From: Microbacterium ureisolvens
Lineage (GTDB): Bacteria > Actinomycetota > Actinomycetes > Actinomycetales > Microbacteriaceae
Direction of reading: 5' to 3'
NCBI RefSeq assembly: GCF_019511645.1
Contig: NZ_JAEUAX010000001.1
Coordinates: 496,001 to 560,000 of the forward strand
Length of the DNA: 64,000 nt
In this document: piece after piece, positions 1-27,498 of the stretch
Numbering within the stretch: the stretch's first letter is position 1
Layout: each line of letters opens with the position of its first letter
Made by a program: the position numbers and the translations under genes
Notes under the pieces: model-generated
The model's database searches: none
What the model saw: the letters and a program-made list of their open reading frames with translations, nothing else
Told to the model about the DNA's origin: nothing

Positions 1-990
1 TTCGGCACCGCGCAGCTTGTCGTCTCGGCGCTTCTCGCCAAGATCCACACCGTGGAATGGACTCCCGCGATCATCGCGCACCCCGTGCTCAAGGTGGCGA
101 TGCGAGCCAACTGGTGGGGGCTCGCAGAGGAGAAGCTCCACCGCATGTTCGGACGTCTGAGCAAGAGCGAGGTCATCAGCGGCATCCCCGGCTCCGCGTT
201 CGACCACCACGGCTCGCCGTACCAGCTCACCGAGGAGTTCGCGGCGGTCTACCGTCTGCACCCCCTCCTTCCCGACACCCTCGAGGTCCACTCGCTCGAC
301 GACGGCACGCTGGTGGACAGCATGGAGTTCCAGGAGATCATCCTGCTCAATGCGCATCGCGTGCTCACCTCGGGCGCGAGGGTCCAGGACCTCTGGTACT
401 CGTTCGGGGTGCAGCATCCGGGAGCCGTCCAGCTGCACAACTTCCCGCGCTGGATGCAGGACCTCACGCTGCCCGACGGGCTCCGCCTCGATCTCGCGGC
501 CCTCGACATCATGCGCGACCGAGAGCGCGGTGTGCCGCGGTACAACGAGTTCCGGCGGCAGCTGCATCTGAAGCCCGCCGAGACGTTCGACGAGCTCACC
601 GACAACCCCGCGTGGGCGAGGGAGCTGGAGGCCATGTACGGGGACATCGAGAAGGTCGATCTGCAGGTCGGCATGCATGCCGAGACGCCGCCACCGGGAT
701 TCGGGTTCAGCGACACGGCCTTCCGCGTCTTCATCCTGATGGCGAGCCGCCGGCTCAAGAGCGACCGGTTCATCACCGACTGCTACACCGAGGAGTACTA
801 CACGAAGACCGGGATGCAGTGGATCGCCGACAACACGATGACCTCGGTGCTGCTCCGCCACTACCCGCAGCTCGCCCCGTCGCTGGAAGGGGTCAAGAAC
901 GCGTTCGCCCCGTGGAAGGTCCAGACGGCGACGCACGCCACCACGCCCGCCGCAGACACGGCGCACGCGACGGCGGTGACGGGGAAGTGA
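1..990 (+). CDS. Alpha-dioxygenase-like haem peroxidase, 3' part
   Basis: The reading frame is open from base 1, so the gene begins before the window and about 329 C-terminal residues are visible. The opening residues (IHTVEWT, then MRANWWGL) and PYQLTEEFAAVYRLHPLLPD (positions 208-279) match the animal-type haem peroxidase superfamily, and specifically plant alpha-dioxygenases. In YRLH the Tyr (250-252) corresponds to the catalytic tyrosyl radical of cyclooxygenases and alpha-dioxygenases, and the His (259-261) to the proximal haem ligand. Family members oxygenate fatty acids to 2-hydroperoxides; that activity is inferred here, not shown. The C-terminal RHYP...FAPW region also fits the family. 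No membrane segment is seen. Its TGA overlaps the GTG of the P450 (GTGA), so the two are probably co-translated. The substrate is unknown. Confidence 0.82.
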   Translation, partial: FGTAQLVVSALLAKIHTVEWTPAIIAHPVLKVAMRANWWGLAEEKLHRMFGRLSKSEVISGIPGSAFDHHGSPYQLTEEFAAVYRLHPLLPDTLEVHSLDDGTLVDSMEFQEIILLNAHRVLTSGARVQDLWYSFGVQHPGAVQLHNFPRWMQDLTLPDGLRLDLAALDIMRDRERGVPRYNEFRRQLHLKPAETFDELTDNPAWARELEAMYGDIEKVDLQVGMHAETPPPGFGFSDTAFRVFILMASRRLKSDRFITDCYTEEYYTKTGMQWIADNTMTSVLLRHYPQLAPSLEGVKNAFAPWKVQTATHATTPAADTAHATAVTGK

Positions 991-2315
991 CGCGCAAGCC
1001 GCTGCCCCCGGGACGCTTCGGGCTGCCCTGGCTGGGCGAGACCCTGTCGATCCTCCGCAACAACCACGGGTTCTACAAGGACCGCGTCGAGAAGTATGGC
1101 CCGATCTTCAAGACGAGGCTGTTCGGGAACAGCTTCGTGATCTTCTCGGGGCACGAGGCGTTCCACACCTTCGCGACCGACGAGCGCATCGTGCGCGGCG
1201 ACGCGGACCCGATCTCGGCGGAGCAGATCTTCGTGAACTCGCTCGCCCTGATGGACGGTTCCGAGCACCACCTCCGCAAGTCCGTCATGCTCCGCGCGGT
1301 GGGCTTCCGCTCGGCGATCGCGTCGTACCTTCCGACGATGCAGGAGCTGCTCCAGCGCACGATCGACCCGTGGCTGACCAGCGGCACGGGCGACGACCTG
1401 CGGGCGGACCTGCAGCGCTTCGCCGCGCGGCTGACCGGTGCGCTCTACACGGGCGACCGCAGCGAGGAGCACGCGGCAGAGCTCGACCGCCACCTCGCGA
1501 ACATGCGCGATGCGTTCATGACGCTGCCCGTGCCGATCCCCGGCACGAAGTACGGGAAGGCCATCGCGGGTCGTAAGCGCCTGGACGAGATCATCGGCGA
1601 AGCACTGGAGAAGCACCAGCGGGGCGGCTACGACGACATCGTGTCGCGGATGATGGTCGCCGCGACCGACGCCGACATTCCGGTCGATGCGCTGCGCGGC
1701 GACATCCGCCATCTCATCTTCGCGGGGCAGGGCGGCTACTTCGTGCCGCTCACGCTCACCACGATGATCGTGGGTCAGCACCCCGACATCATGGAGCGCG
1801 CCCGTGCGGAGGTGCTGGCAGTCTCGCCTGACGGACCGGTGACGATGGAGCAGATCGAGAGGATGGAGTACCTCGAGCAGATCTCCAAGGAGGTGCGCCG
1901 GTACTTCGCGATGAATTCGGCGACCTTCTTCGGGCGCGTGCAGTCCGACATGGAGGTGGGCGGGTACCGCATTCCGAAGGGATGGGGCGCGATGGGCGGC
2001 ATCCACATCAACATGCGCAACCCCGACGTCTTCCCCGACCCCGACCGCTTCGACCCCGACCGCTTCGAGGCGACCGCGGAGGCGGCGCTTCCACCCGGAA
2101 GCTACGTGCCGCATGGCGACGGTCAGAGCACCCACCACCGGTGCCCCGGTGAGAACATCGTGACGGTCGCGGTCAAGATGTACCTCACGCTCCTGCTCCG
2201 CAAGGCGCAGTGGTCGATTCCCGAACAGGATCTGACGCTCACCAACGAACTCTTCCCGCTCCCGGCGAGCGGCCTCACCGTGAGGTTCCGCGAATATGTC
2301 GCGGTCGCGGGGTGA
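987..2315 (+). CDS. Cytochrome P450, atypical oxygen-activation motifs
   Basis: A 442-residue soluble P450. GTG at 987 is chosen because it overlaps the upstream stop and gives the usual Pro-rich start (LPPGRFGLPWLGE). The K-helix ExxR is E302-R305, the PERF-like motif is FDPDRF (355-360), and the haem Cys is C386 in HGDGQSTHHRCPGE. That haem loop lacks the normal FxxGxxxCxG spacing and Phe, and is reminiscent of fatty-acid peroxygenases (CYP152: GGG...HRCPGE). The I-helix (about 239-256, IFAGQGGYFVP) lacks the acid/Thr pair that activates O2. Both features suggest use of a peroxide or a hydroperoxide substrate, which fits the adjacent alpha-dioxygenase-like gene. No ferredoxin or reductase gene is nearby. 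The exact CYP family is not assignable by eye. Confidence 0.88.
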   Translation: MTRKPLPPGRFGLPWLGETLSILRNNHGFYKDRVEKYGPIFKTRLFGNSFVIFSGHEAFHTFATDERIVRGDADPISAEQIFVNSLALMDGSEHHLRKSVMLRAVGFRSAIASYLPTMQELLQRTIDPWLTSGTGDDLRADLQRFAARLTGALYTGDRSEEHAAELDRHLANMRDAFMTLPVPIPGTKYGKAIAGRKRLDEIIGEALEKHQRGGYDDIVSRMMVAATDADIPVDALRGDIRHLIFAGQGGYFVPLTLTTMIVGQHPDIMERARAEVLAVSPDGPVTMEQIERMEYLEQISKEVRRYFAMNSATFFGRVQSDMEVGGYRIPKGWGAMGGIHINMRNPDVFPDPDRFDPDRFEATAEAALPPGSYVPHGDGQSTHHRCPGENIVTVAVKMYLTLLLRKAQWSIPEQDLTLTNELFPLPASGLTVRFREYVAVAG

Positions 2316-3216
2316 CGCCGGCGGCCGCCGGGCCGCGGCCCGTGGCATCGGCGGGCTCGTGCCGCTCACGCGGCTCATGGTCTTCGGCTCCCGGCTGCCC
2401 CTCACGCGCACGCCCGGCGAAGCCGGGCTCGGGTTCGAAGAGGTTGTCTTCGAGGCGACCGACGGCGTCGAGCTGCGGGGATGGTTCGTTCCCGCGGGAC
2501 CGGAGCCCGCCCCGACGGTCGTCTGGGTTCACGGATGGCTCTGGAACCGGCTGGGCAACGTCGCAGGCCTCGTGCCCTTCCCCGACCGCGACGTGGACTT
2601 CCTTCCCGCCACCGAGGCGCTTCACGACGCGGGGTTCCACGTGCTCATGTTCGACCTCGCGAACCACGGTGAGAGCGGGGCACGGCGTCCGCTCACCTTC
2701 GGGCCATGGGAGGCCCGGGACTTCGCCGGTGCAGTGGCGTATGTCCGGTCGCGGCCTGACGTCATCCCCGACCGCGTCGGAGCGATCGGCATGTCGGCCG
2801 GCGGCAACACCGTCCTGTACGGCGCGCCCGGTGCGCAGCCGATGAAGGCGCTCCTCATCGTGCAGCCGACCAAGCTCACGGTCTTCAACGAGCGGTTCGC
2901 GCGCGATCGGCTCGGCCGGTTCGGATCCCTGGCGGCCCGGTCGATGGACCTGCTCTACTTCCTGATGCGCGCGCCGCTGCCCAGCCGGCAGGATCCGGCC
3001 ATCCCCGCACGCCGCATCGCTGACGCGACGGTGCAGTACGTCCAGGGCGTCGGCGATCCCTGGGGCACGATGGAGGTCGTCGAGAACGTCTCGGCGGCGA
3101 CTCCGAAGTCGCTGGGTGTCGTCCGCTACCCGTCGCCGCCCGGCCGCTACGAAGGCTATCGGTACGTGATGGACGACCCCGCCGCCGTCGTCGCCTTCTT
3201 CCGCGCCCACCTCTGA
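2296..3216 (+). CDS. Alpha/beta hydrolase, third gene of the oxygenase operon
   Basis: A 306-residue alpha/beta-hydrolase-fold protein. ATG at 2296 lies inside the P450 end (20-base overlap), so translation is coupled; GTG at 2359 is a possible alternative. The oxyanion strand VVWVHGW (75-81) and the nucleophile elbow IGMSAGG with Ser167 are clear, and Asp254 is the likely acid. The catalytic His expected about 30 residues after the acid is not visible: the segment reads RYEGYRY, and the only C-terminal His is residue 305. Either the His comes from elsewhere or the enzyme is not a classic esterase. N-terminal residues 18-34 are moderately hydrophobic but not a clear signal peptide. A role on fatty acyl or oxylipin substrates is inferred from the neighbours only. 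Confidence 0.8.
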   Translation: MSRSRGDAGGRRAAARGIGGLVPLTRLMVFGSRLPLTRTPGEAGLGFEEVVFEATDGVELRGWFVPAGPEPAPTVVWVHGWLWNRLGNVAGLVPFPDRDVDFLPATEALHDAGFHVLMFDLANHGESGARRPLTFGPWEARDFAGAVAYVRSRPDVIPDRVGAIGMSAGGNTVLYGAPGAQPMKALLIVQPTKLTVFNERFARDRLGRFGSLAARSMDLLYFLMRAPLPSRQDPAIPARRIADATVQYVQGVGDPWGTMEVVENVSAATPKSLGVVRYPSPPGRYEGYRYVMDDPAAVVAFFRAHL

Positions 3217-3276
3217 GGGCACAGCCGGGCGGCCGCAGCATCTCCGCACGGCCCCGATGGCCACCCCATCACCGGG

Positions 3277-4737
3277 TCAGGGGTGCCAGAGCCCGTCGTG
3301 GGCCGCCTGGCGGGTGTACTGACGCGGGTCGAAGAAGCGGTCGTAGTACTCGAGTTCGAGGTGCGAGAACTGCAGCCACATGCCGGGCGTGTAGAACGCG
3401 TCCACGTGGGCGGGGAACCGGCCGTACGTGTCCCAGATGTAGTTGCAGATCTCCTTGGTGTAGGCGATCTCCTCGGGGCCGAATCTCGTGCCCTTCGCGA
3501 GGAACGCGCGCGCGTCGTCGGAGTTGCGGTACGCGCTCGAGAAGACCTTCTCGTTTCCATATGCCGGTCCGGTGGCGCTGTACTTGGACTCGACCACCCG
3601 ATCGACGGCTTCGTCCATCGACGAGACGTACGGGGGAGTCAGGCCCTCCAGGATGCCGTCGATCCCGACCGGGTTCGGCTGGGACGCCGGCACCGGCGGC
3701 CACCTGTGATGCTTCTTCGGCTCCTCGAGCCGGAAGCCGAGGCCATGCCATCCCTTGGCGTCATCCTGCTGCCAGATGTACGGCGGGAACACGGAGCCGT
3801 GGATCCAGCCGCCGAGGCCCATCGCCTGGCCGAGCAGCATGAGGTTCTGGAAGTAGAAGAACGCCTCGTAGTCGGTGCGCAGCGTGTTGCCGAACCCGAG
3901 GGGTGCCTGGCTCTGCTTGTTGAGATAGCCGCTGCGCACGCGGTCGAGCCCGCCGATCGGGTGGTAGGGGATCTTCGGCCCGATGCCGAGTCCGCTTGCG
4001 ATCTTCGCGATCCACTCGACGGCGTTCTTCGGGTGGAAGCTGCGCCAATCGTCGAGGAAGAGCGGGCGCATGCCGCCCGGCTCGGTCAAGAGGATCAGGA
4101 TCGCGTTGATGTACTGCCACGTGCAGTCGACGACGGGGAAGAAGACCGTCGTGCCCGGGGTGTTGGAGGCCTGGTTGTTCCAGCCGAGGTAGTACGGCCA
4201 CTCCCGCGGGAAGTCCAGACGCCGGTCCGACACACGCACCAGGCACTCGTCGGCGGCACTGATCCAGTCGGACTCCGTCCAGTCGCCCCATTTGGGCGGG
4301 AGGTCCTTCAGCAGCTCGAGCGCGCGCTCCCCGCGGGGGCTGCGCAGCAGGAAGATGCCGTCGTCGTTGATCATGAAGAAGTGCGTGGCCTGCGCGTTGT
4401 CGGCGCTGCTGCCGGTCCGGGCCATGATGTTGAGGAACGGAGTGCCGAGTTCGTCGAGCCCGTTGTTCTCCACGAGCGGGCCGTCGTGGGTCGTGATGCC
4501 GGTGATCCCTGTCACGCACGTGATGAGGATCGCCTCCTCGAGCTTGCTCAGCGGCGCCGGAGCGTTGTGGCTCTCGTGGCTGAGCGGACCCGCGTTCACC
4601 GAGAAACCCCGGGGGATGCGGCGCGTACGCCGCTCCGTGAGTGCGGACAGGAACGGATACCCCGCAAGATCAGCGAGCGCCGGGTGGGTCGCGGAAGCCG
4701 TGGCGTCGGTGGCCGGGGACGGGTCGATCGATGTCAT
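3277..4737 (-). CDS. Conserved protein of unknown function (486 aa)
   Basis: I do not recognise a characterised homologue. The N-terminal half has ERRTRRIPRG, PLSKLEEAILITCVTGITG and FFMINDDGIFLL, which faintly recall FMN-dependent nitroreductase-fold proteins (an Arg-rich start followed by a PLS.EE helix); this is a weak remote impression. The C-terminus is rich in aromatics and His (YIWDTYGRFPAHVDAFYTPG, then HLELEYYDRFFD). No signal peptide or long membrane helix is apparent. It is the second gene of a minus-strand pair: the Cys-nucleophile hydrolase ends 21 bases upstream of its ATG. It converges on the peroxidase-P450-hydrolase operon with a 60-base gap. A 5'-GGAGAGC-type site lies just before the ATG. 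Its position suggests a part in the same lipid-oxidation pathway. Confidence 0.75.
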   Translation of the reverse strand: MTSIDPSPATDATASATHPALADLAGYPFLSALTERRTRRIPRGFSVNAGPLSHESHNAPAPLSKLEEAILITCVTGITGITTHDGPLVENNGLDELGTPFLNIMARTGSSADNAQATHFFMINDDGIFLLRSPRGERALELLKDLPPKWGDWTESDWISAADECLVRVSDRRLDFPREWPYYLGWNNQASNTPGTTVFFPVVDCTWQYINAILILLTEPGGMRPLFLDDWRSFHPKNAVEWIAKIASGLGIGPKIPYHPIGGLDRVRSGYLNKQSQAPLGFGNTLRTDYEAFFYFQNLMLLGQAMGLGGWIHGSVFPPYIWQQDDAKGWHGLGFRLEEPKKHHRWPPVPASQPNPVGIDGILEGLTPPYVSSMDEAVDRVVESKYSATGPAYGNEKVFSSAYRNSDDARAFLAKGTRFGPEEIAYTKEICNYIWDTYGRFPAHVDAFYTPGMWLQFSHLELEYYDRFFDPRQYTRQAAHDGLWHP

Positions 4738-4758
4738 GGCGCTCTCCTCGTTCTCGTG

Positions 4759-5841
4759 TCAGTTGTGCAGGTCGAGCCGGCCGGTGATCACGGGATAGAC
4801 GTCGCGCGCGGCATCCTTCCCGATGAAGCAGTCCATGTGGGCGTAGCCGGGGATGACATCGCGGGTGTAGAACTCGTCGCCGTTGCGCTCGCGCAGCACG
4901 TCATAGGTCATCTCGCTGCCCTCGGGGAGGAACAGGCGGTTGTCCGCGCCGTGGAGGAAGGCGATCGGCAGGCGGAGCCCCGACACGTCGTCGAGGTAGT
5001 CGTGCTCGCCGTCGGCGCTCACGGCATGGTCCTCGCGCAGGATCCTGGTGATGTGGCGCAGCGTGGTCATGTTCGCGACGCCGAACGCCTCCTCGAGGTG
5101 GTCGTGCGTCGCTTCGTTCAGCTGCGCGTGGTCGTACACCTCGCCGTACATGAACATGACGCGCCGGCAGAACGGGCGCTCGCACGGCTCGTCGCCGGAG
5201 GGGTACATCGCGAGCGCCTTGTCGTAGAGCGTCTCGCCCCATGAGGGGTCGTCGTCGAACTCCGTGGTGAGGGTATCGAAGCCGAGCGCCTGGAGGATGT
5301 TCCCGGCGTAGATCCCGGCGCGCAGCTCGTTGAGGCTGCCACCGCGAGGGTGCAGCGTCACCTGTGACGCCACCGCCGATCGCACGCGCTCGAGTCCGAG
5401 CCCGAGCGCCATCAGCATCGTGAGGGATCCGACGCAGTGCGCCACGATCTGCACCGACTCGGCTCCCGAGACCTCGCGCACCGTGGCCACCGCGGCCGGG
5501 TAGTCGTAGGCGGCGATGTCGTCGAGCGTGAACTGCGTGCCGCCCGAGGGCAGCGCGGGGCTCGCCCGGTAGTCGAGCACCCACACGTCGTAGCCGTGCT
5601 CGTACAGGTACTCGGGGAAGTTCGTGTCGGTCGTGTCGATCGTGTAGGCGAGAGCCGACGTGCCGAACCCCGGGGTCAGGATCACCGGTCCCTTGGTCCC
5701 GCCCTCGAACCGCGTCAGGCGCAGCGTGACCCCGTCGGCGGTGTCGAACTCGTGGATCGTCGGCTCGCCGCAGCGCAGCGGCCGTCGAACGCGGTCCTCG
5801 GGAGTATCGGCCGCCGTCGAGGCGGTCGGGTGCTCGCTCAT
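4759..5841 (-). CDS. Alpha/beta hydrolase with Cys nucleophile
   Basis: A 360-residue alpha/beta-hydrolase protein. The strand-5 elbow reads IVAHCVGS with Cys136 in the position normally held by Ser. The other triad members look intact: Asp300 in FLHGADNRLF and His335 in PGYAHMD. A Cys nucleophile is known in dienelactone hydrolase and in polyhydroxyalkanoate synthases. A similar AHCVGS box occurs, from memory, in hydrolases linked to GMC-type sterol/choline oxidoreductases. The oxyanion segment is LTPGFGTSALAY. There is no signal peptide. It is the first gene of the minus-strand pair, with ATG at 5841 and the unknown 486-aa protein following after 21 bases. A thioester or lipid substrate is plausible but unproven. 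Confidence 0.82.
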   Translation of the reverse strand: MSEHPTASTAADTPEDRVRRPLRCGEPTIHEFDTADGVTLRLTRFEGGTKGPVILTPGFGTSALAYTIDTTDTNFPEYLYEHGYDVWVLDYRASPALPSGGTQFTLDDIAAYDYPAAVATVREVSGAESVQIVAHCVGSLTMLMALGLGLERVRSAVASQVTLHPRGGSLNELRAGIYAGNILQALGFDTLTTEFDDDPSWGETLYDKALAMYPSGDEPCERPFCRRVMFMYGEVYDHAQLNEATHDHLEEAFGVANMTTLRHITRILREDHAVSADGEHDYLDDVSGLRLPIAFLHGADNRLFLPEGSEMTYDVLRERNGDEFYTRDVIPGYAHMDCFIGKDAARDVYPVITGRLDLHN

Positions 5842-6148
5842 CTCGACCCCCCAGCATCAGCCGTACGGAGATCGTCGCGGCGAGGCGGGACCGGCCCACG
5901 GGCGACGACGGAGTCAGCATATTGCCCGGCAAGCGCTCTCGTCACGAAGTTCAGGAGTCTCACCGGGGACCCCTGATACCCGAGGTACGAGAACCACTGG
6001 CTAGACTCGTCGCGTGGAACTCGTCTGGTCGTCCGCCGCAACGGCAGTGCAGACCGACACGCGAACGCTCGGCGCCTGAGCGGGCGGGGCGCGTCGTGCG
6101 CCCGAAGCTGAGTAGCCTTGACCCCGAGCCATTCCCAGGAGAGTTTCC
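5842..6148. other. Divergent intergenic region, hydrolase / thrS
   Basis: 307 bases separate the two divergent starts. It should hold promoters for both directions. For thrS, TAGCCT at 6113-6118 could be a -10, followed by a strong AGGAGAG ribosome site at 6137-6143. TAGACT at 6002-6007 is a further -10-like hexamer. No convincing -35 boxes, T-box leader, tRNA or coding sequence was seen. A 67-codon minus-strand frame here has mixed third-position bases and is not supported. Confidence 0.5.
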
Positions 6149-18642: not shown

Positions 18643-19634
18643 TGCGCTCCATGAGCCAGTTCGGCAACGACCTCTACACGGGCAAGACCTCCTTCCCCTT
18701 CGTCGGCCGCCGCCGCCTGTGGTTCCTCATCGCGGCGATCCTCGTCCTGGGCTCCGCCCTGGTTCCGCTGCTGCGCCCCATCCAGTTCTCGATCGAGTTC
18801 ACCGGCGGCTCGCAGTTCACGGTGAGCGGCGTCGCGTCGCCCATCGACCAGTCGCTGGCAACCGAAGCCGTCCACTCGGTCGTGCCGGATGCCACGACCA
18901 AGGTCGTCACGATCGGCGAGGACGCGGTGCGCGTCCAGACCGACCAGATGACGGATGCCGAGAGCCGCGAGGTGTCGGCCGCCTTGGCCGAGGCGTACAA
19001 CGTGCCCGAGAGCGAAGTCAGCTACGCGTTCATCGGGCCCAGCTGGGGAGCGGACGTCACGCGCCAGTCGCTCTGGGGTCTCGCGATCTTCCTCGCTCTG
19101 ACGGCCATCATCCTCGCGCTGTACTTCCGCACCTGGAAGATGTCGCTCTCGGCGATCATCGGCCTCGTGGACGTGCTCATCATCACGATCGGCATCTACG
19201 CCCTGTTCGGCTTCGAGATCTCGCCCGCCGCCGTCATCGGCTTCCTGACGATCCTCTCGTACGCTTTGTACGACACCACGGTCGTCTTCGACAAGATCAG
19301 GGAGAACACCAGCGAGGACGGCGAGGTCTCCGGACGCACGTTCGGCGAATCCGTAAACCTCGCGGTGAACCAGACCCTCGTGCGGTCGATCAACACGACG
19401 GTGGTCGCGATCCTCCCGACCGGTGCGATCCTGTTCATCGGGATCGTGTGGGCGGGTGCGCAGACGCTCACCGACCTTTCGCTGTCGATCTTCGTCGGGA
19501 CCATCGTGGCCGCGTACTCGACGATCTTCGTCGCGGCGCCGCTGTACTCGCTGCTGCGCGAGAACGAGCCGGCCATCAAGGCGCGCGACGCGCGCGTGGT
19601 GGCGGCGCGTGAGCTGGCGGGCACCCCGGCCTGA
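18642..19634 (+). CDS. secF: Protein translocase subunit SecF
   Basis: A 330-residue partner of SecD. TM1 (LWFLIAAILVLGSALVPLL) is followed by FSIEFTGGSQFTV, a smaller periplasmic-side domain, then five helices beginning with SLWGLAIFLALTAIILALYF. SYALYDTTVVFDKIRENT is the conserved cytoplasmic loop, and VNQTLVRSINTT is also typical. ATG at 18642 overlaps the secD stop (TGATG) and has a strong AAGGAGGGAG site inside secD. Confidence 0.97.
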   Translation: MRSMSQFGNDLYTGKTSFPFVGRRRLWFLIAAILVLGSALVPLLRPIQFSIEFTGGSQFTVSGVASPIDQSLATEAVHSVVPDATTKVVTIGEDAVRVQTDQMTDAESREVSAALAEAYNVPESEVSYAFIGPSWGADVTRQSLWGLAIFLALTAIILALYFRTWKMSLSAIIGLVDVLIITIGIYALFGFEISPAAVIGFLTILSYALYDTTVVFDKIRENTSEDGEVSGRTFGESVNLAVNQTLVRSINTTVVAILPTGAILFIGIVWAGAQTLTDLSLSIFVGTIVAAYSTIFVAAPLYSLLRENEPAIKARDARVVAARELAGTPA

Positions 19635-19688
19635 GGGTTCGCCGTGCGGGCGTAGGATTGTGAGGTCCAGCGGAAGGGAGGGGATCGA

Positions 19689-21938
19689 GTGACCGAGACC
19701 GTCCCTCCCGCCCAATCCTCCTCGCTGCGACGCCTGGTCCCTCGGATCTTCTCGAGGTCCGCGCGCCGCGACGACGTCGAGCAGCTCCTGCGGACGGTGC
19801 GTACGCATCATCCCAAGGGCGACCTGTCGATCGTCGAGCGCGCCTATTCGGTCGCAGAGACGGCGCACACCGGTCAGCTGCGTCAGAGCGGCGAGCCGTA
19901 CATCACGCACCCGCTGGCGGTCGCGCAGATCCTCGCCGATCTGGGTCTCGGGCCGCGTGCGATCGCGGCGGCGCTCCTGCACGACACCGTCGAAGACACC
20001 GACTACTCGCTCGAGATGCTCACGAGCGAGTTCGGCGACGAGGTCGCCATGCTGGTCGACGGCGTGACGAAGCTCGACAAGGTCAAGTACGGGGAGAGCG
20101 CGCAGGCCGAGACGGTCCGCAAGATGATCGTCGCGATGTCGCGCGACATCCGCGTCCTGCTCATCAAGCTCGCCGACCGCCTGCACAACGCGCGCACGTG
20201 GGGTTTCGTGCCGCCCGAGAAGTCACGCAAGAAGGCGACCGAGACTCTCGAGATCTACGCGCCGCTCGCGCATCGGCTCGGCATCCAGGCGATCAAGTCC
20301 GAGCTCGAGGACTTGTCGTTCGCCGTGCTGCATCCGAAGCTGTACGCCGAGATCGACAGCCTCGTGAAGCAGCGCACGCCCCAGCGCGAGCAGTACGTGC
20401 AGAACGTCATCGACGCGGTCGACAGCGACCTGCGGGAGCTGCGCATACGCGGGCGGGTGATGGGTCGTCCCAAGCAGCTGTACTCCGTGTATCAGAAGAT
20501 GGTCGTCCGCGGCCGCGAGTTCGACGACATCTACGACCTCATCGGCATCCGCGTGCTCGTGGGCAGCGTGCGCGACTGCTACGCCGTGCTCGGCGCGATC
20601 CACGCACGGTGGACGCCGCTGCCCGGGCGCTTCAAGGACTACATCGCCACCCCGAAGTTCAACCTCTACCAGTCGCTCCACACCACGGTGATCGGCCCGG
20701 GGGGCCGCACCGTCGAGATCCAGATCCGCACGCACGAGATGCACCAACAGGCGGAGTACGGCGTCGCGGCGCACTGGAAGTACAAAGAGCAGATGAACGG
20801 CGGCAAGCCGGACTCCAAGTCCGTCGACACCGACATGGCGTGGCTCGCCCATATCTCGGACTGGCAGGCCGAGACCGCGGACCCCGGCGAATTCCTCGAT
20901 TCCCTCCGTTTCGAGATCGGCGCCAAAGAGGTCTACGTCTTCACACCGAAGGGCCGCGTCATCGGGTTGCCGTCTGGGGCGACACCCGTCGACTTCGCCT
21001 ACGCCGTGCACACCGAGGTCGGCCATCGCACGATGGGGGCCAAGGTCAACGGGCGCCTCGTGCCGCTGGAGTCCGAGCTCAAGAGCGGCGACGTCGTCGA
21101 GGTCTTCACGTCGAAGAACCCCGACGCCGGCCCGAGCCAGGACTGGCTCGGCTTCGTGCGCAGCACGCGCGCCCGTAACAAGATCCGCGGCTGGTTCACC
21201 AAGGAGCGCCGCGAAGAGGCCATCGAGCAGGGCAAGGAGTCGATCGCTCGCGCGATGCGCCGGCAGAACCTGCCGCTGCAGCGCCTGATGAGCCAGGACT
21301 CGTTCACCGAGGTCGCCCACCAGCTCCGCTACGAGGACGTCTCCGCGCTGTACGCCGCCGTCGGCGAAGGTCACGTGTCGACCCAGTCGGTCATCGAGAA
21401 GGTCACCGCGCTGGTCGCGGCAGGCGACACGACCACCGGTCCGATCGACCTGCCGGTCGTCGGCCGGGCACGTGCACCGCGCAACGGCGATTCCGGCATC
21501 CTCGTGCGCGGCGCCCCCGACATCCTGGTCAAGCTCGCGAAGTGCTGCACCCCGGTGCCCGGCGACCAGATCGTCGGGTTCGTCACGCGAGGCAGCGGCG
21601 TCTCGGTCCACCGCGCCGACTGCACCAACGTCAAATCGCTCATGGAGGACCCCGAGCGCCTCATCGAGGTCGAGTGGGCGCCCACGACGAAGAGCGTCTT
21701 CCTGGTGCAGATCCAGGTCGAGGCTCTCGATCGCTCGGGGCTTCTGAGCGATGTGACGCGTGTGCTCAGCGAGCACCACGTCAACATCCTCTCGGCGACG
21801 GTCTCGACCTCGAACGACCGTCTGGCGCTCAGCCGCTTCGTCTTCGAGATGGGCGACATCGTGCATCTCGATCGCGTCCTCAATGCGGTGCGGCGCATCG
21901 ACGCGGTCTACGACGTGTACCGCGTCACGTCGTCCTGA
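19689..21938 (+). CDS. relA: Bifunctional (p)ppGpp synthetase/hydrolase
   Basis: A 749-residue long RSH enzyme controlling the stringent response. The order is hydrolase HD domain ([16 protein letters not shown], then the HDTVED motif near residue 98), synthetase domain ([37 protein letters not shown]), TGS domain ([20 protein letters not shown]), zinc-finger/helical region ([19 protein letters not shown]) and a C-terminal ACT domain. Hydrolase residues HD and ED are intact, so both activities are expected. GTG at 19689 follows GAAGGGAGGGG. Its last 31 bases are overlapped antisense by the next gene. Confidence 0.97.
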
Positions 21939-22492
21939 CGTGCGGCGACGATCCCCCGGAGGCACGCCAGGGCCGAGCGCTTGTGGGGGAGCGCCCCCGC
22001 CTCCAGCCGTGCGATCGCCCGGTCCGCGGCATCCGTGTCGACGTCCGTGAGGAGGCGCGCGGCCGCCGTATGCTCGTCGTCGCCCACGCGCGCGAGATCG
22101 GCGAGCGTGCGCTCGGGCGTCGTCACGAGCACGCCGCCGATGAGCTGGAGGTCGTCCGCCGGCACCTGCAGGTCGCGGTACACCACGCGACGGTCGGGCC
22201 GGACGTGGATCCGCCGCGGCACCGCGCGCTGCACGGTGTGGCGTGAGGGCGGCGACGGCAGGCCGCCGTGCACCCACGCGGCGGACAAGTGGGTCGCCGC
22301 GAGCGTCTCACCCAGGGTCTCGGCGAGCGAGCCCGCGCGCAGCGCCGTGGTCTCGACGGCGTCCGCCGGGATGTACGCATCGCCGAGAGCCACGAGGTCG
22401 CCGTCGAGGCATGCGGCCGTGAGCTCCGCGCGGGAGAGCCGCTCATCGGCGAAGTAGAGGAAGGGCGATCCCACGGAGGCAGTCTGCCGCAC
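21908..22492 (-). CDS. AbiEi-antitoxin-like protein, no toxin partner
   Basis: A 194-residue soluble protein. [29 protein letters not shown] and [19 protein letters not shown] match the common actinobacterial family annotated as type IV toxin-antitoxin AbiEi antitoxin domain proteins. The N-terminal ~45 residues look like the usual winged-helix segment, somewhat reduced. No AbiEii-like nucleotidyltransferase toxin lies next to it, so an antitoxin role is not supported by context. GTG at 22492 or at 22474 (codon 7) could be the start. The 3' end overlaps relA convergently by 31 bases. Confidence 0.68.
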
Positions 22493-22531
22493 CGCCGAGG
22501 ATGCGGGGATGCCGCACCCGCCGATTGTGGA

Positions 22532-22565
22532 GAACCCGGCCGCCGCGGATGCGACGACCGGGTTC
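22532..22565 (-). terminator. Hairpin after DUF349 gene
   Basis: An 8-bp perfect stem (GAACCCGG and complement) with an 18-base loop lies just beyond the minus-strand DUF349 stop. There is no T run, so it is a weak terminator candidate. Confidence 0.4.
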
Positions 22566-22587
22566 CCGAACGCTCAGGCGGGGCGGA

Positions 22588-24225
22588 TCAGCCGCCCAGT
22601 GCCTTGAGCCACGTGCGACGCGCCTCGAGCGCGTCGGTCGCATTCGCGATCGCCTTCTTGTCTCCCGACTTCTTCGCGGCCTCGAGCTCGTCCTCGAGCT
22701 TCTGGATCGCGTCGTTCAGCTGGCGCGTCATGTCATTCGCGCGCGCCTTCTGCTCGGGGTCGTTGCGCTTCCAGTCGGCGTCCTCACGCGAACGCAGCGC
22801 GTTCTCCACGCGACGCAGCTCGTCATCGAGGGAACGCTCCGTGTCACGGGGGAAGATACGCCCGATCTCGTCCCAGCGGCGCTGGATGCCCGTCAGGATC
22901 GAGCGCGCCTTCGCGATATCGCGCTCGTCTCCGACCGCCTTCGCCTCATCGAGGAGCGCGCGCTTGAGCTCGATCTTCTCGCGGGAGGCCTCGGCGTCCG
23001 CCGCCTCGCGCTCGATGCGCGCGCCGTAGAGCGCGTCACCAGCGGCCTTGAAGCGTGCCCAGAGGGCGTCGTCGACCTTCTTGCCGGCGCGTCCGGCCGT
23101 CTTCCACTGGTCGAGCAGCTCGCGATATGCGGGGATGCCGTCCTCGCCCTTGGGCGCGAGTGCCTCGGCCTTCTCGACGAGGCGCGTCTTGCGGTCGCGG
23201 ACGCCCTTGTGCGCCTCGTCCAGCTCGGCGTAGAACGCACGACGGTGCTTGTCGACCGTGGCGCGTGCGTCGCGGAATCGCTTCCAGAGCTGCTGAGCCG
23301 TGGACTTCGGCAGTCGCGGACCGTTCTGCTGCTGCGACTGCCACTGGTCGAACAGCGCGTTGAGCTCTGCCGTGGCCTGCTTCCACTGCACGGTGCGCGG
23401 GTCGCGGGCGGCGAGGGCCTCCGCCTTCTCGACCAGCTCGGTGCGGGCCTTGACCGCGTCGTCGACGGCTTCGCGCGCCGCGACGGCCTCGGTCGCGGAC
23501 TCGGCGGCGAGCGTCTCGGTGAGGGCGGCTACGCGGGCCACGAGGCTCGCGAGATCGCCGACCGCGGCAGCGCCCTCGAGCTTGCCGTTGATCGTGCGCG
23601 CGGTGGAGCGAAGGTCGGAGGCGGATGCGCCGCCGCGACGATGGCGCACCTCGAGCAGGGTCACCTCGCTGGCCAGGTCGTTGTACTTGCGCTCGAAGTA
23701 CGCGAGCGCCTCTTCGGCGGAGCCGTCGGGGTACTGGCCCACGACACGCCAGCCGTCGGCCTCGCGGACCGAGACGGTGCCGTCCTCGTCGACACGGCCC
23801 CAGGGCTCGTCGGCGGACTGCCCGGTCTCGACGGTGACGTCCACAACCTCGACGGCGACGACCTCGTCGTCTTCGACGACCTCAGCGACGCCGACCACCT
23901 CGACGGCCACGACTTCGGAGTCCTCGACGACCTCCACCACGTCGACCTCGACGAGCTCGATCTCGACGTCCGCCGCTTCGGATCCCTCAGACGCGGCTTC
24001 GTCCGGCGTCTCCTCGGACTTGGACCCGTCGCCTGCGAGAGGGGCCGGCTCGGCCGATTCCGCCTCCGCGGTGTCGTCGGCGGCGGGCGCGGCACCCGCG
24101 TCCGTCGGGGTATCGGCCACGGTCGCGTCGTCGGCGACGGCCGGGGTCTCGTTGTCGTCGGCCCCGGCGGCCTCGGGGGCGTCGGTCTCGGGCGGGAAGT
24201 CTGCTGCGGCAGTCACGGGTTGCAC
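22588..24225 (-). CDS. DUF349 coiled-coil protein
   Basis: A 545-residue protein. Residues 1-135 are Ala/Glu/Asp/Val-rich and low-complexity, with a duplicated stretch at 99-111 and 117-129. A small conserved segment DGTVSVREADGWRVVGQYPDGS follows. The rest is helical, with several DUF349 repeats recognised by W....(A)..(D)..W patterns such as QLWKRFRDARATVDKHRR, ALWARFKAAGDALY and IQRRWDEIGRIF. DUF349 proteins are charged coiled coils; their function in actinobacteria is not settled, though some relatives associate with ribosomes or RNA metabolism. Proximity to relA is a recurrent actinobacterial arrangement as far as I recall. Confidence 0.9.
   Translation of the reverse strand: MQPVTAAADFPPETDAPEAAGADDNETPAVADDATVADTPTDAGAAPAADDTAEAESAEPAPLAGDGSKSEETPDEAASEGSEAADVEIELVEVDVVEVVEDSEVVAVEVVGVAEVVEDDEVVAVEVVDVTVETGQSADEPWGRVDEDGTVSVREADGWRVVGQYPDGSAEEALAYFERKYNDLASEVTLLEVRHRRGGASASDLRSTARTINGKLEGAAAVGDLASLVARVAALTETLAAESATEAVAAREAVDDAVKARTELVEKAEALAARDPRTVQWKQATAELNALFDQWQSQQQNGPRLPKSTAQQLWKRFRDARATVDKHRRAFYAELDEAHKGVRDRKTRLVEKAEALAPKGEDGIPAYRELLDQWKTAGRAGKKVDDALWARFKAAGDALYGARIEREAADAEASREKIELKRALLDEAKAVGDERDIAKARSILTGIQRRWDEIGRIFPRDTERSLDDELRRVENALRSREDADWKRNDPEQKARANDMTRQLNDAIQKLEDELEAAKKSGDKKAIANATDALEARRTWLKALGG
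23839..23931 (-). repeat. Internal duplication in DUF349 acidic region
   Basis: Two 13-residue copies, VVEDSEVVAVEVV and VVEDDEVVAVEVV, are separated by five residues in the acidic N-terminal region. They differ at one residue and probably arose by local duplication. Confidence 0.7.
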
Positions 24226-24324
24226 CTCATCGCGGCTCGCGCCGTCTGTAGGGAGTAGGACGGCTCACAGCCTAGTACGGCGCACGGCCCGCCCGAGGTG
24301 CCGATATGGTGCGAGACGCCGGAC

Positions 24325-24633
24325 TCAGGGGGTCGGCGTGGGCGTCGCGCCGGGTTCCGGCGTGGTCGTCGCCGACGGCGTCGGCTCCGGCGTCGTGGCG
24401 GTGGGCGCCGGAGTCGACGACGGCGAAGGCTCAGGGGCGCCGGGGCCTGCGACGAAGTACAGCGTCTGCGCTCCGATCAGACCGAGCACCAGCATCCCGC
24501 CGACGATGCCCGCGATCAGGTTGTCGCGCGTGCGACGGCGCGACTGGCCGTCGTGGAACTGACGTCGCGCCTCGTACAGCCGCGTGCGCTCGCGCGCAGC
24601 CCGTGCGTCGCGGTCTTTGCCACCGGTCGCCAC
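24325..24633 (-). CDS. Small single-pass membrane protein, unknown function
   Basis: A 102-residue protein. A basic, charged N-terminus (RDARAARERTRLYEARRQ and SRRRTRDN) precedes one membrane helix (IAGIVGGMLVLGLIGAQTLYF, about residues 40-60). The outside tail is Pro/Thr/Ser-rich. The layout resembles the N-terminal anchor of actinobacterial membrane-bound peptidyl-prolyl isomerases found near relA, but no isomerase domain follows, so it may be a reduced relative. ATG at 24633. It is divergent from rarA and upstream of the DUF349 gene on the same strand. Confidence 0.68.
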   Translation of the reverse strand: MATGGKDRDARAARERTRLYEARRQFHDGQSRRRTRDNLIAGIVGGMLVLGLIGAQTLYFVAGPGAPEPSPSSTPAPTATTPEPTPSATTTPEPGATPTPTP

Positions 24634-24756
24634 GTGACCTCCTCGTTCCGTTCATGTCGGGCGCATCCGCCCGTGCCAGGCAGCGCCCGGGCGGGTTGAT
24701 CCTACGGGCCCGCACTGCGGCCGCCAAACCGCGGATCCGGTGTCGTGGCCGCGGGA

Positions 24757-24762
24757 TAGCCT
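24757..24762 (+). promoter_or_regulatory. -10 box TAGCCT, probable leaderless rarA promoter
   Basis: The final T lies seven bases before the first base of the rarA GTG, the same spacing as at ruvC and ruvA. Confidence 0.5.
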
Positions 24763-24768
24763 GGTGGA

Positions 24769-26115
24769 GTGACCGGTCCTTCCGCGCTCTTCCAGGGCCT
24801 GACGCCTCTCGCCGTGCGCATGCGTCCGACCTCGCTGGACGAGGTCGCGGGGCAGTCGCACCTGCTGCGTGCGGGGTCGCCGTTGGTGACGCTCGCGAAT
24901 CCGGATGCCGCGGCTCGGGCCGCGACGTCGGTCATCCTGTGGGGACCACCCGGTACGGGCAAGACCACGCTCGCGCAGGCGATCGCCCGCTCTTCGGGGC
25001 GGCGGTTCGTCGAGCTCTCCGCCGTGACCGCGGGTGTGCGCGACGTGCGCGAGGTGATGCAGGAGGCGCTGACCCAGCGAGATCTCTACGGCCAGTCCAC
25101 CATCCTCTTCCTTGACGAGATCCACCGCTTCACGAAGGCCCAGCAGGACGCCTTGCTGCCGGGCGTGGAGAACGGCTGGGTCGTGCTCATCGCGGCGACG
25201 ACCGAGAATCCGTCGTTCTCCGTGATCTCGCCGCTCCTGTCGCGGTCGCTCCTGCTGACGCTCAAGCCCCTCACCGACGAAGACCTCGGCATGCTCCTCG
25301 ACCGCGCGGTCACCGATGCCCGTGGCCTCTCGGGCAGCGTCGTGCTCGGCGACGAGGCGCGCGCCGCCCTGGTGCGACTCGCCTCGGGCGACGCGCGGCG
25401 AGCCCTCACGGCACTCGAGGCGGCGGCCTCCCTCGCGATCCCGGACGATGACGATGACGACGACGACGTGCGGACGATCCCCGAGATCTCAGCCGACAAC
25501 GTCGCACAGGCGGTCGATCGGGCGCTGCTGCGCTACGACCGCCAGGGCGACGAGCACTACGACGTCATCAGCGCCTTCATCAAGTCGATCCGCGGCTCGG
25601 ATGTGGATGCCGCGATGCACTACCTCGCCCGGATGATCGAGGCGGGAGAGGACCCGCGATTCATCGCCCGCCGCCTCATCATCTCCGCCGCGGAGGACAT
25701 CGGTCTCGCCGACCCCCAGGCGCTGCCGATCGCCGTGGCCGCCGCCGACGCCGTGCAGTTCATCGGGATGCCGGAGGGCCGGATCCCGCTGGCGGAGGCG
25801 ACCGCGTACCTAGCGACGACCGCGAAGTCGAACGCTGCCTACCTCGCGATCGACGCGGCGATCGCCGACGTCCGCTCCGGCGGCTTCGGCCGCGTTCCGA
25901 TCCACCTGCGCGATGCCCACTATCCGGGGGCGAAGCGCCTGGGGCACGGCAAGGGGTACGTGTACCCGCACGACGCCGAGATCGGCATCGCGGCGCAGCA
26001 GTACCTGCCCGACGAACTGCGCGGCCGTCGCTACTACGAGCCCAAGGCCCTCGGCGCAGAGCGCGACGTCCAGGCCCGCCTCGAGAAGATCCGGCGCATC
26101 CTCGACGGCCGCTGA
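24769..26115 (+). CDS. rarA: Replication-associated recombination protein RarA
   Basis: A 448-residue AAA+ ATPase of the RarA/MgsA/WRNIP1 family acting at stalled replication forks. An opening LAVRMRPTSLDEVAGQSHLL precedes Walker A GPPGTGKTT and Walker B ILFLDEIHRF; sensor AATTENPSFSV and RALTALE follow. The C-terminal tetramerisation domain (SAFIKSIRGSDVDAAMHYLA, SAAEDIGLADP, HYPGAKRLGHG) is complete. A run of eight Asp (about residues 227-234) forms an acidic insertion between the ATPase and C-terminal parts. GTG at 24769 seems to be leaderless. Confidence 0.96.
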   Translation: MTGPSALFQGLTPLAVRMRPTSLDEVAGQSHLLRAGSPLVTLANPDAAARAATSVILWGPPGTGKTTLAQAIARSSGRRFVELSAVTAGVRDVREVMQEALTQRDLYGQSTILFLDEIHRFTKAQQDALLPGVENGWVVLIAATTENPSFSVISPLLSRSLLLTLKPLTDEDLGMLLDRAVTDARGLSGSVVLGDEARAALVRLASGDARRALTALEAAASLAIPDDDDDDDDVRTIPEISADNVAQAVDRALLRYDRQGDEHYDVISAFIKSIRGSDVDAAMHYLARMIEAGEDPRFIARRLIISAAEDIGLADPQALPIAVAAADAVQFIGMPEGRIPLAEATAYLATTAKSNAAYLAIDAAIADVRSGGFGRVPIHLRDAHYPGAKRLGHGKGYVYPHDAEIGIAAQQYLPDELRGRRYYEPKALGAERDVQARLEKIRRILDGR

Positions 26116-26348
26116 ACACCCGTCCGTCGACTCGATGCGCGCTTCGCCGCCGCGCCCCACGGTCGTGCGGGATGCCCGCCGACCGCGTCTGGTAAGCTTG
26201 AGCGGCTCGAAACGCCGTTTTCGGGCATCCCCTCTCTTCCAGACCTACCTTCCGGCATGCCCCGGCGTGCAGTCCGGACAGGGCGAAGACAGGGTGATAC
26301 GTCCGCGAGCCGTGAAAGACACGGCAGCGTCATCGAAAGGAACACTTC
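26116..26348 (+). other. rpsD leader region
   Basis: 233 bases between rarA and rpsD. TAAGCT at 26193-26198 could be a -10, giving a leader of about 140 bases. The leader could carry ribosomal-protein autoregulation, as S4 does in other bacteria, but I could not recognise a specific S4-binding structure. GAAAGGA at 26335-26341 is the ribosome site. Confidence 0.4.
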
Positions 26349-26978
26349 GTGGCAACGAAGTCCCAGGACCGCCGCAAGGTCCGTCTGTCGCGCGCCCTCG
26401 GCGTCGCGCTCACCCCGAAGGCCGCCCGCTACCTGGAGAAGCGTCCCTACGCTCCGGGCGAGCACGGCCGCACCAAGCGCAAGCAGGACAGCGACTACGC
26501 CGTCCGCCTCCGTGAGAAGCAGCGTCTGCGCGAGCAGTACGGCATCCGCGAGAAGCAGCTGCGCATCCAGTTCAACGAGGCCCGCCGCACCCAGGGCCTG
26601 ACCGGTGAGAACCTCGTCGAGCAGCTCGAGATGCGTCTGGACGCCCTCGTGCTGCGCGCCGGCTTCGCCCGCACCACCGCGCAGGCACGTCAGCTCGTCG
26701 TGCACCGCCACATCCTCGTGGACGGCCAGCTCGTCGACCGCCCGTCGTTCCGCGTGAAGCCGGGTCAGCTCATCCACGTCAAGGCGAAGAGCGAGGGCCT
26801 CGAGCCCTTCCAGGTCGCAGCTCTCGGCGGCCACGCCGAGGTCCTGCCGCCCGTCCCGGGCTACCTCGAGGTCGAGCTCGACAAGCTCCAGGCCCGTCTC
26901 GTGCGCCGCCCCAAGCGCGCCGAGGTCCCCGTGGTCTGCGACGTCCAGCTCGTCGTCGAGTACTACGCAGCTCGCTGA
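26349..26978 (+). CDS. rpsD: 30S ribosomal protein S4
   Basis: A 209-residue primary 16S rRNA binding protein. KSQDRRKVRLSRALG, the basic YAPGEHGRTKRKQDSDYAVR, EKQLRIQFNEA and the S4 RNA-binding domain LDALVLRAGFARTTAQARQL are conserved. No zinc-type Cys cluster is present (the C- form). GTG at 26349 follows AAAGGAACACTTC. It is monocistronic here and ends in a good terminator, unlike organisms where rpsD is in the alpha operon. Confidence 0.98.
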   Translation: MATKSQDRRKVRLSRALGVALTPKAARYLEKRPYAPGEHGRTKRKQDSDYAVRLREKQRLREQYGIREKQLRIQFNEARRTQGLTGENLVEQLEMRLDALVLRAGFARTTAQARQLVVHRHILVDGQLVDRPSFRVKPGQLIHVKAKSEGLEPFQVAALGGHAEVLPPVPGYLEVELDKLQARLVRRPKRAEVPVVCDVQLVVEYYAAR

Positions 26979-26994
26979 TCTTCAGCAAGTGACG

Positions 26995-27030
26995 AAGGGC
27001 GTCGGGGTCACCCGGCGCCCTTTGTCTTTG
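26995..27030 (+). terminator. Rho-independent terminator after rpsD
   Basis: A 12-pair stem (AAGGGCGTCGGG with CCCGGCGCCCTT, one G-T wobble) with a GTCA loop is followed by the T-rich TTTGTCTTTG. It is the clearest classic terminator in the window. Confidence 0.85.
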
Positions 27031-27107
27031 CCTGCCGGGTGCCTCGGGTCGTTTCCGCATACGATGGGGGGATGCCGCGTCCCGGCGGCCCGCGAGGAAG
27101 TGGTGAC

Positions 27108-27404: not shown

Positions 27405-27498
27405 GCGGCACCCGCACCCGGCGAGCACCGCCGGCCCGCTCGAACCTCCCCAGATACCCCGAACACGCACGCATTCGCACGCACACGCAAGGACCCGC

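Follow-up and report, generated by a model that had tools for sequence, protein, structure and literature searches.

The seven-gene island of ~10.7 kb found in Microbacterium ureisolvens probably, though by no means assuredly, arrived by horizontal transfer and serves fatty-acid alpha-oxidation of the oxylipin type. Judging from sequence, its atypical cytochrome P450 would use the hydroperoxide made by an alpha-dioxygenase (aDOX) as oxygen source. Neither the island, the P450 partner, nor the link of its fourth gene to aDOX is described in the open-access literature searched, and no pathway with these genes was found there, as an earlier note on this DNA had supposed; bacterial aDOX as such are already known.

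Extent and Gene Content of the Island

The island occupies nt. 1–5996 of the window (the whole stretch of DNA analysed, 64,000 nucleotides) and its left end lies ~4.7 kb further left, as delimited by presence/absence against 14 congeners (read out of 18 with thrS) and by an empty site in the congener L170. In this comparison, the seven genes are present or absent together. Five of them are the genes of the earlier note, all of which were found in the window as it described them: aDOX, the P450, and an alpha/beta hydrolase (HydA) on the forward strand, faced by a leftward pair comprising gene 4 and a Cys-type hydrolase (HydB). The other two lie left of the window on the reverse strand, namely a GMC oxidoreductase (L003:8376–10820) and a second Cys-type (HCxGS) hydrolase (HydC; L003:7339–8379), with a tRNA block next beyond HydC in the leftward direction. 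No redox partner is encoded among the seven genes. Comparison of the two end stretches revealed no repeat-flanked integration, the longest common direct repeat being 10 bases, with no inverted repeat of ≥10 bases, and an Rfam search of the window returned no match.

HydA (nt. 2296–3216, forward strand) carries the Ser nucleophile motif GMSAGG (S167) and overlaps the P450 gene by 20 bases (nt. 2296–2315), in agreement with the overlap reported earlier. HydB (nt. 4759–5841, reverse strand) is likewise an alpha/beta hydrolase and, by motif, of the Cys-nucleophile kind noted earlier, its predicted nucleophile C136 (nt. 5434–5436) lying in the motif HCVGS, or AHCVGS with the preceding residue. Among the Cys-type hydrolases (HydB and HydC), the motif HC[VIQ]GS was present in six of seven homologous ORFs, the one without a match to this pattern being a Gemmatimonadota ORF (L018).

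The Alpha-Dioxygenase

Only the 3′ part of the aDOX gene falls inside the window (nt. 1–990, forward strand); the gene starts 845 bases to the left and was completed from the same genome (L003:11155–12990, 611 a.a.), its identity following from homology and residues. The full protein aligns with rice aDOX over residues 10–588 (E = 2.6e-121), including the PYQLTEEF...VYRLHPLLPD block previously taken as a match to plant aDOX, and is 50.8% identical to the plasmid copy of Calothrix PCC 6303, the comparison being with this copy rather than with CalDOX. In rice aDOX, according to the accessible part of PMC8720084, Y379 is catalytic, H382 is the proximal and H157 the distal His, H311, R559, and T316 lie at the carboxylate and alpha-carbon, and F375 and F552 surround the Tyr. 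All eight of these residues, checked by alignment, are present in the island aDOX: Y366 (nt. 250–252; rice Y379), H369 (nt. 259–261; rice H382), H142 (left of the window; rice H157), H298 (nt. 46–48; rice H311), T303 (nt. 61–63; rice T316), F362 (nt. 238–240; rice F375), F526 (nt. 730–732; rice F552), and R533 (nt. 751–753; rice R559), all on the forward strand. The His and Arg that bind the fatty-acid carboxylate are thereby retained. Given that the distal His and the seven other residues are in place, the 2-hydroperoxy fatty acid proposed in the earlier note is a well-supported prediction for the aDOX product.

The Atypical Cytochrome P450

The P450 gene (nt. 987–2315, forward strand, GTG start; Pfam p450, 1e-39) begins within the aDOX stop, the two genes sharing the four bases GTGA (nt. 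987–990) as had been noted. Its best PDB match is cytochrome P450 120, with the C-terminal part also matching CYP152. By alignment, helix I (A246–P254, nt. 1722–1748, forward strand) reads AGQGGYFVP where cytochrome P450 120 (2ve3) has AGHETLTSA, so the acid-alcohol pair ([AG]Gx[DE]T) is missing from helix I, and the earlier description of a P450 devoid of O2-activation residues stands. The pair is likewise missing from the 63% identical P450 of Nocardioides (AGQAGFFVP). The haem-ligand Cys386 (nt. 2142–2144, forward strand) sits in an enlarged loop, VPHGDGxxxHHRCPGE, of the CYP152 type (PxGxGxxxxHRCxGE), in which VPHGDGQSTHHRCPGE aligned with IPQGGGDVDFGHRCAGE of 5yhj_A ('Cytochrome P450'), an entry that we take to be CYP152-like. 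CYP152 peroxygenases carry Arg-Pro in helix I; there is no Arg in AGQGGYFVP, and the protein scored 113.5 bits against NCBIfam CypC (cut-off 600). The CYP74A motif in helix I is FNxxGG, with the Asn near the haem (PMC13049297, accessible part), and AGQGGYFVP has no Asn of the CYP74-clan kind either. Both assignments, to CYP152 and to CYP74, were rejected because of helix I.

Two further P450 relatives (L005 and L006, 33% identity) are unusual in the same way in both helix I and the Cys loop, with no aDOX in the stretch covered around them, indicating that loss of the acid-alcohol pair is not special to the aDOX partnership. The other P450s near aDOX (L015, L046, L087, and L019) are of different types, one having GDT in helix I, and a general P450–aDOX link was rejected on this basis. 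AF2 models built from two-row alignments reached a pLDDT of 37 for the P450 and 30 for gene 4 and were left unused.

Distribution of the Gene Set

Six of the seven island families recur in Nocardioides agariphilus, which has all five genes and part of the GMC oxidoreductase at 57–72% identity and brings the genomes found with the set to two. In Nocardioides, HydA is tandemly duplicated, HydB shares one open frame with a domain resembling the C-terminal part of GMC, and aDOX and the P450 are separated by about 0.4–0.5 kb, so the overlap of these two genes is not conserved. The pattern for aDOX gave >592 matches; confirmation was obtained for 588, of which the 80 best were analysed, many loci ending at contig ends; the counts that follow therefore lean towards aDOX resembling that of the window, and rare neighbours were missed since ORF neighbours were clustered with cut-offs. 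Outside the source genome, the five genes co-occurred in one of these 80 loci (best 80 of 588). The co-occurrence anticipated by the earlier note thus holds in Nocardioides agariphilus but finds no support in the host's own relatives: in the host order, the P450 (E ≤ 1e-50) is missing from 296 of 297 genomes, and in the host family, gene 4 is missing from 99 of 100. Neither of the outcomes that the note had named as speaking against its reading was observed.

Gene 4 and the Catalase-Related Domain of Relatives

Gene 4 (nt. 3277–4737, reverse strand, 486 a.a.) had been called an unknown conserved protein; by profiles it is weakly nitroreductase-like. The window protein has no Pfam match, while Pfam Nitroreductase was hit by two of seven family members (best 0.0034), and a PDB search returned seven matches, the best five being nitroreductases or flavin reductases at weak E-values (0.14–1.2). 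Using hhalign, the gene-4 profile (25 of 28 rows) aligned with nitroreductase at E 5e-4 and a probability of 31%, whereas 11 control profiles gave E ≥ 0.14; shortened members gave a weaker match (E 0.0018, 15%), and full segments were used instead. Profile A1 was built without the Phyllobacterium gene 4, which is broken across two frames. Gene 4 may have a nitroreductase fold and bind FMN.

The tie of gene 4 to aDOX was found in two far-apart aDOX clades. Close relatives of gene 4 lay near aDOX in all 19 records (16 of 16 plasmid records, the window, L017, and L126), many of them near-identical and including rhizobia and Nonomuraea. Of the 19 plasmid records containing a gene-4 match, seven were retrieved, the others being placed near aDOX by coordinate comparison. 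For 20 of 29 listed matches the surroundings were retrieved, several on short contigs.

A catalase-related haem domain is joined to aDOX in one protein in the loci retrieved from Nonomuraea, Rhizobium, and Phyllobacterium and in L126. The profile of this domain (A5) matched 3e4w (4.5e-19), catalases (from 1.5e-9), and coral allene oxide synthase (1u5u, 4.2e-5) in the PDB, and H70, K72, R344, and Y348 are invariant in all six sequences, with a distal-type His and RxxxY present. A relative of the fused domain lay ≤1 kb from aDOX in 14 of 80 loci and a lipoxygenase-like gene ≤400 bases from it in five of 80 (best 80 of 588 in both cases). Profiles of the separate catalase-like neighbours matched no solved catalase in the PDB for eight genes and did so weakly (E 0.5) for four, so the catalase label is firmer for the fused domain than for these neighbours.

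Proposed Pathway and Alternatives

In the pathway we favour, the hydrolases would free or transfer acyl chains, and aDOX would add O2 at carbon 2 to give an (R)-2-hydroperoxy fatty acid, a step for which residues and homology give good support. The P450 would then take oxygen from this hydroperoxide, not from O2 and a reductase, yielding a 2-hydroxy, 2-oxo, or dihydroxy acid. Later flavin-dependent redox steps on this product may fall to the GMC oxidoreductase and to gene 4, the nitroreductase-like protein. We infer hydroperoxide use from the missing acid-alcohol pair, from the fact that none of the seven genes encodes a redox partner, and from the catalase-related haem domain found in its place in relatives, a domain that the P450 would here replace.

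It is also conceivable, if rather unlikely, that aDOX acts alone to give Cn-1 aldehydes and 2-hydroxy acids; the P450 would then be a peroxygenase or hydroxylase in its own right, driven by H2O2 or a peroxide and acting on some later intermediate or a different lipid. The products of aDOX decarboxylate spontaneously, with no second enzyme (PMC8720084, accessible part), and the CYP152 match of the P450's C-terminal part, its relatives without aDOX, and the overlap lost in Nocardioides all fit such an account; it sits less well with the overlap in the window, the neighbourhood kept in Nocardioides, and the other haem domain, of a hydroperoxide-handling type, that fills the same role beside gene-4 relatives. 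A catabolic cassette for a sterol-/terpenoid-like or unusual acyl lipid, where the GMC and hydrolases do the main work and aDOX and the P450 trim a side chain or fatty ester, appears improbable. The closest match of the GMC is cholesterol oxidase in both the PDB (2e-26) and NCBIfam (6.2e-59, though with a score of 199.9 bits where the cut-off is 850), and the GMC-tail-like domain in the Nocardioides HydB frame points the same way, as do the GMC and HCxGS-family genes beside aDOX in five of 80 loci (best 80 of 588 confirmed). However, no such GMC was seen in the other 75 of these 80 within the stretch covered, there is no steroid-ring catabolic gene among the seven, and aDOX keeps its carboxylate-binding residues. 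That unrelated genes were joined by one insertion, finally, is very hard to credit when six of the families recur jointly in a second species (57–72% identity) and gene 4 is tied to aDOX in two distant clades, even though the set is rare (one of 297 order genomes) and P450s near aDOX need not exceed what the many P450 genes per genome would lead one to expect.

Returning to the proposed hydroperoxide-using P450, a broader proposal that we offer tentatively is a bacterial two-haem relay for alpha-oxygenated lipids, independent of fungi and animals, where the recipient of the aDOX 2-hydroperoxide would be a self-sufficient P450, as yet unassigned to a family, whose helix I resembles that of prostacyclin synthase, and where the seven genes would form a mobile island. 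At the second haem step, a P450 and a catalase-related domain would be interchangeable, while the dioxygenase and the unassigned flavoprotein-like gene 4 family stay the same. Bacterial aDOX have been characterised as biocatalysts, and with an island this compact, expression of two or three genes can put their cellular role to the test. Should the P450 use 2-hydroperoxides, it would offer a bacterial parallel to the pairing of COX with prostacyclin synthase and to that in Ppo, as well as a catalyst for 2-functionalised fatty acids that needs no reductase.

Comparison with Known Systems

Plant and cyanobacterial aDOX (rice and Arabidopsis aDOX; CalDOX, LepDOX) are among the closest known enzymes, the island aDOX sharing homology and the eight residues with that of rice. 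The difference is its setting, a seven-gene island that includes a P450; the text of PMC8720084 contains none of the words operon, fusion, P450, and catalase. Fungal linoleate diol synthases (Ppo) likewise pair a dioxygenase of the cyclooxygenase superfamily with a P450 acting on its hydroperoxide (PMC13049297, accessible part). In Ppo these form one polypeptide with 8/9/10-dioxygenase activity and NQxQ in the P450, whereas the island has separate genes (4-base overlap), an alpha-dioxygenase, and AGQGG in helix I. The earlier suggestion of a split Ppo counterpart survives only as a working analogy, Ppo being likened by description; by sequence, the dioxygenase goes with alpha-dioxygenases, and P450 120 is the match for the P450, joined in its C-terminal part by CYP152.

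Prostacyclin synthase (CYP8A1) and the CYP74 hydroperoxide P450s also have a helix I without the usual pair, and WATQGNMGPA of prostacyclin synthase (PMC13049297, accessible part) resembles FAGQGGYFVP of the island P450, a comparison of helix I and not of whole proteins, in which the island P450 has no Asn at the catalytic place. The same division of labour between a dioxygenase and a second haem enzyme is seen in the coral lipoxygenase fusions and in Nostoc 10S-DOX with its separate catalase-related lyase (accessible parts of PMC5617202 and PMC13049297), where the partner is a catalase-related hydroperoxide lyase or allene oxide synthase; the corresponding haem enzyme of the window is a P450 and not catalase-related.

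Alpha-Dioxygenase and Its Overlap with the P450

The window opens within the gene for the fatty-acid alpha-dioxygenase (aDOX), the 5′ remainder of which was recovered from the same genome (L003, a stretch reaching left of the window). The full-length protein (611 residues) matched Pfam An_peroxidase (5.6e-109) and, over residues 10–588, rice alpha-dioxygenase (4kvj, 2.6e-121). The roles of the rice residues, including the distal His157, catalytic Tyr379 and proximal His382, are taken from PMC8720084. By alignment, rice His157, His311, Thr316, Phe375, Tyr379, His382, Phe552 and Arg559 correspond to H142, H298, T303, F362, Y366, H369, F526 and R533, respectively, and, judged by its sequence, the window gene encodes an alpha-dioxygenase with its catalytic residues. 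According to that paper, which covers known bacterial aDOX, the products of these enzymes are (R)-2-hydroperoxy acids, which break down to Cn-1 aldehydes and are a source of 2-hydroxy acids as well.

The P450 start codon (GTG, 987) overlaps the aDOX stop codon (GTGA), and HydA, a Ser-type alpha/beta hydrolase, overlaps the P450 by 20 bases. In Nocardioides agariphilus (L017), the aDOX end at 11773 precedes the start of the P450 match at 12273, so the aDOX/P450 overlap is not conserved; the P450/HydA overlap there is 4 bases.

Atypical P450

The closest solved structure to the P450 was cytochrome P450 120 (2ve3, 1.6e-58), while matches to CYP152 peroxygenases were best in the C-terminal part. 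Helix I reads AGQGGYFVP in the window P450, compared to AGHETLTSA in 2ve3; given that the Nocardioides P450 (63% identical) reads AGQAGFFVP, the loss of the usual motif has been kept. Like 5yhj_A, the window P450 has an enlarged Cys loop (VPHGDGQSTHHRCPGE). By sequence, the P450 lacks the O2-activation pair; no redox partner was found among the seven island genes, and the genome holds one further P450 match. PMC13049297 gives helix I as LQlWATQGN287MgPA in prostacyclin synthase and FATcFN321TwGGMKI in CYP74A; the window motif is similar to that of prostacyclin synthase as given there, but without its Asn.

At E ≤ 1e-50, the P450 was missing from 296 of the 297 order genomes, and the sole match to P450 profile A4 at 1e-70 among 394 class genomes was the window's own genome. 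Relatives at 33% identity (L005 and L006) occurred in 2 of 395 other phylum genomes at 1e-40. The stretches examined contained no aDOX, though helix I and the Cys loops are odd there too, which counts against a special link between the P450 and aDOX. In these two P450s (L216, L217), from two other genomes of the host's phylum, helix I is shortened and free of the motif and the Cys loop is long; they perhaps represent a wider peroxide-using P450 family.

Island and Its Insertion Site

Left of aDOX, on the opposite strand, lie a cholesterol-oxidase-like GMC oxidoreductase (814 aa) and HydC, a second HCxGS (Cys-type) hydrolase, followed by tRNA genes. Among congeners, thrS was present in 18, and the region upstream was read in 14. 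In L170, the congener with the best thrS match (88% identical), ~90 bases separate the end of the tRNA block from the thrS-side sequence, versus ~10.7 kb here. This insert (19271 to 29996 in own-genome reference coordinates) comprises HydC, GMC, aDOX, P450, HydA, gene 4 and HydB, and none of the 14 congeners read showed a nucleotide match inside it. No flanking repeats of >10 bases were found at the insert. The site holds ~0.25 kb in the congener L183, while the stretch read in L177 did not include the tRNA block. Given that 11 of the 14 congeners carry other sequence of ~0.9–9.6 kb there, the gap between the tRNA block (L003:6501-7032) and thrS (window 6149) may be an insertion hot spot.

An aDOX profile scan (one genome per species) gave at least 588 confirmed relatives, of which the best 80 loci were analyzed. 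Six of the island's families recurred together in one of the 80, the Nocardioides locus, with identities to the window of 70% (aDOX), 63% (P450), 59% (HydA), 71% (gene 4) and 72% (HydB), a tandem second HydA copy (55% identical) and an N-terminal GMC stretch (57% identical). Its first five genes are arranged and oriented as in the window, with GMC at the opposite end, past HydB, and the locus read stops inside GMC. There, a single open frame of 733 codons covers both HydB and a domain with 35% identity to the C-terminal part of GMC. On the sequence evidence, the island genes constitute one inherited unit. GMC- and HCxGS-family genes accompany aDOX in five of the 80 loci (L017, L018, L071, L084 and L088), and the island GMC (E ≤ 1e-80) matched only 19 of 296 class genomes, own included.

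Gene 4

Gene 4 (window 3277–4737, minus strand; 486 aa) was missing from 99 of 100 family genomes and was not seen in 79 of the best 80 aDOX loci. Nineteen plasmid records matched it: all 16 at ≥36% identity, including many near-identical Rhizobium plasmids, have aDOX within 2.5 kb, and the remaining three (26–30%) were absent from the aDOX records. The two genes are 2–5.5 kb apart in the window, L017 and L126 (a genome of the host's class), placing close gene 4 relatives near aDOX in 19/19 cases, many near-identical. Of 20 regions fetched around gene 4 matches in 396 phylum genomes, one (L126) contained aDOX; the 19 at 26–31% identity had none in the stretches examined. In the aDOX tree (89 rows), the window/Nocardioides clade is far from the gene 4/catalase-fusion clade, which places gene 4 with two widely separated aDOX lineages.

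The protein is likely nitroreductase-like. The best five of seven PDB matches to its profile were nitroreductases or flavin reductases, all weak (E 0.14–1.2); Pfam Nitroreductase was matched by two of seven members (best 0.0034), the window protein being unmatched; and hhalign gave E 5e-4 (31% probability) against nitroreductases, versus ≥0.14 against 11 control profiles.

Partners of aDOX in Other Bacteria

In the Nonomuraea, Rhizobium (two), Phyllobacterium and L126 loci fetched, aDOX forms the C-terminal part of a ~950–1030-codon frame, the N-terminal ~350 residues of which are catalase-related; Calothrix NIES-4105 (L062) carries such a fusion too, without gene 4. The frames lie at L007:7030-9954, L008:4798-7626, L010:7065-9911 and L011:5062-7911 (rhizobial plasmids, Phyllobacterium and Nonomuraea), L126:4210-7308 and L062:8891-11788. 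Both annotated records fetched (L008, L011) label them 'peroxidase family protein'. Pfam Catalase matched the two fused domains scanned (1.4e-6 and 4.2e-6), and a profile of all six matched 3e4w (4.5e-19) as well as catalases (from 1.5e-9) and the coral enzyme 1u5u, an allene oxide synthase-lipoxygenase (4.2e-5), with H70, K72, R344 and Y348 invariant across the six.

Among the best 80 loci, relatives of the fused domain (26–39% identity) lie <1 kb from aDOX in 14 and 1–10 kb away in eight, a twelve-fold higher density in the nearer interval, the 14 being non-independent (about five lineages on the aDOX tree), which makes the p-value computed for this difference too small. In eight of them (Nocardia, Mycolicibacterium), the neighbors carry HAKS and NRxKxxVYEASS motifs, and their profile had no PDB match up to E 10; for four more (Streptomyces, Pseudonocardia), the sole matches were catalases at E 0.5. 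Two representatives of the separate neighbors matched no Pfam family. A search of the window genome, of little probative weight, found no homologue of the catalase-related domain. A lipoxygenase-like gene lies ≤400 bases from aDOX in five loci (L027, L043, L059, L077 and L095), from Sorangium, two Pseudonocardia, Nitrospira and Archangium; the one scanned (L059:8473-9978) matched Pfam Lipoxygenase at 6.9e-9. At the sequence level, other bacteria repeatedly pair aDOX with a second protein of haem type.

Proposed Pathway and Further aDOX Gene Sets

In the window, the P450 would take the aDOX hydroperoxide and steer it to a defined product ahead of decarboxylation, with GMC and gene 4 possibly performing later redox steps and the hydrolases supplying or re-esterifying acyl groups; candidate products are 2-hydroxy, 2-oxo or diol acids. 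We found no description of this gene set in the open-access papers searched, and the text of PMC8720084 contains none of the words 'operon', 'fusion', 'P450' and 'catalase'. What is new is the arrangement of already known enzyme classes, together with an unassigned P450 and an unassigned protein family.

A possibly more complete alpha-oxidation set is seen at L015:1793-9764 and L046:5040-13493, where aDOX occurs with a benzoylformate-decarboxylase-like ThDP enzyme, a GlcD-like FAD oxidase, another P450 type and an alpha/beta hydrolase. Loci with both aDOX and a ThDP enzyme are L010, L011, L015, L046 and L126; together with the GlcD-like oxidase, these enzymes would be consistent with steps from 2-hydroxy through 2-oxo compounds to aldehydes. 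We also noted RoxA-like cytochrome c proteins ≤7 kb from aDOX (L008, L016, L020, L033, L044, L060, L074 and L076) and old-yellow-enzyme-type flavin oxidoreductases near aDOX in fourteen loci, both labels denoting gene clusters with one representative each scanned with Pfam.
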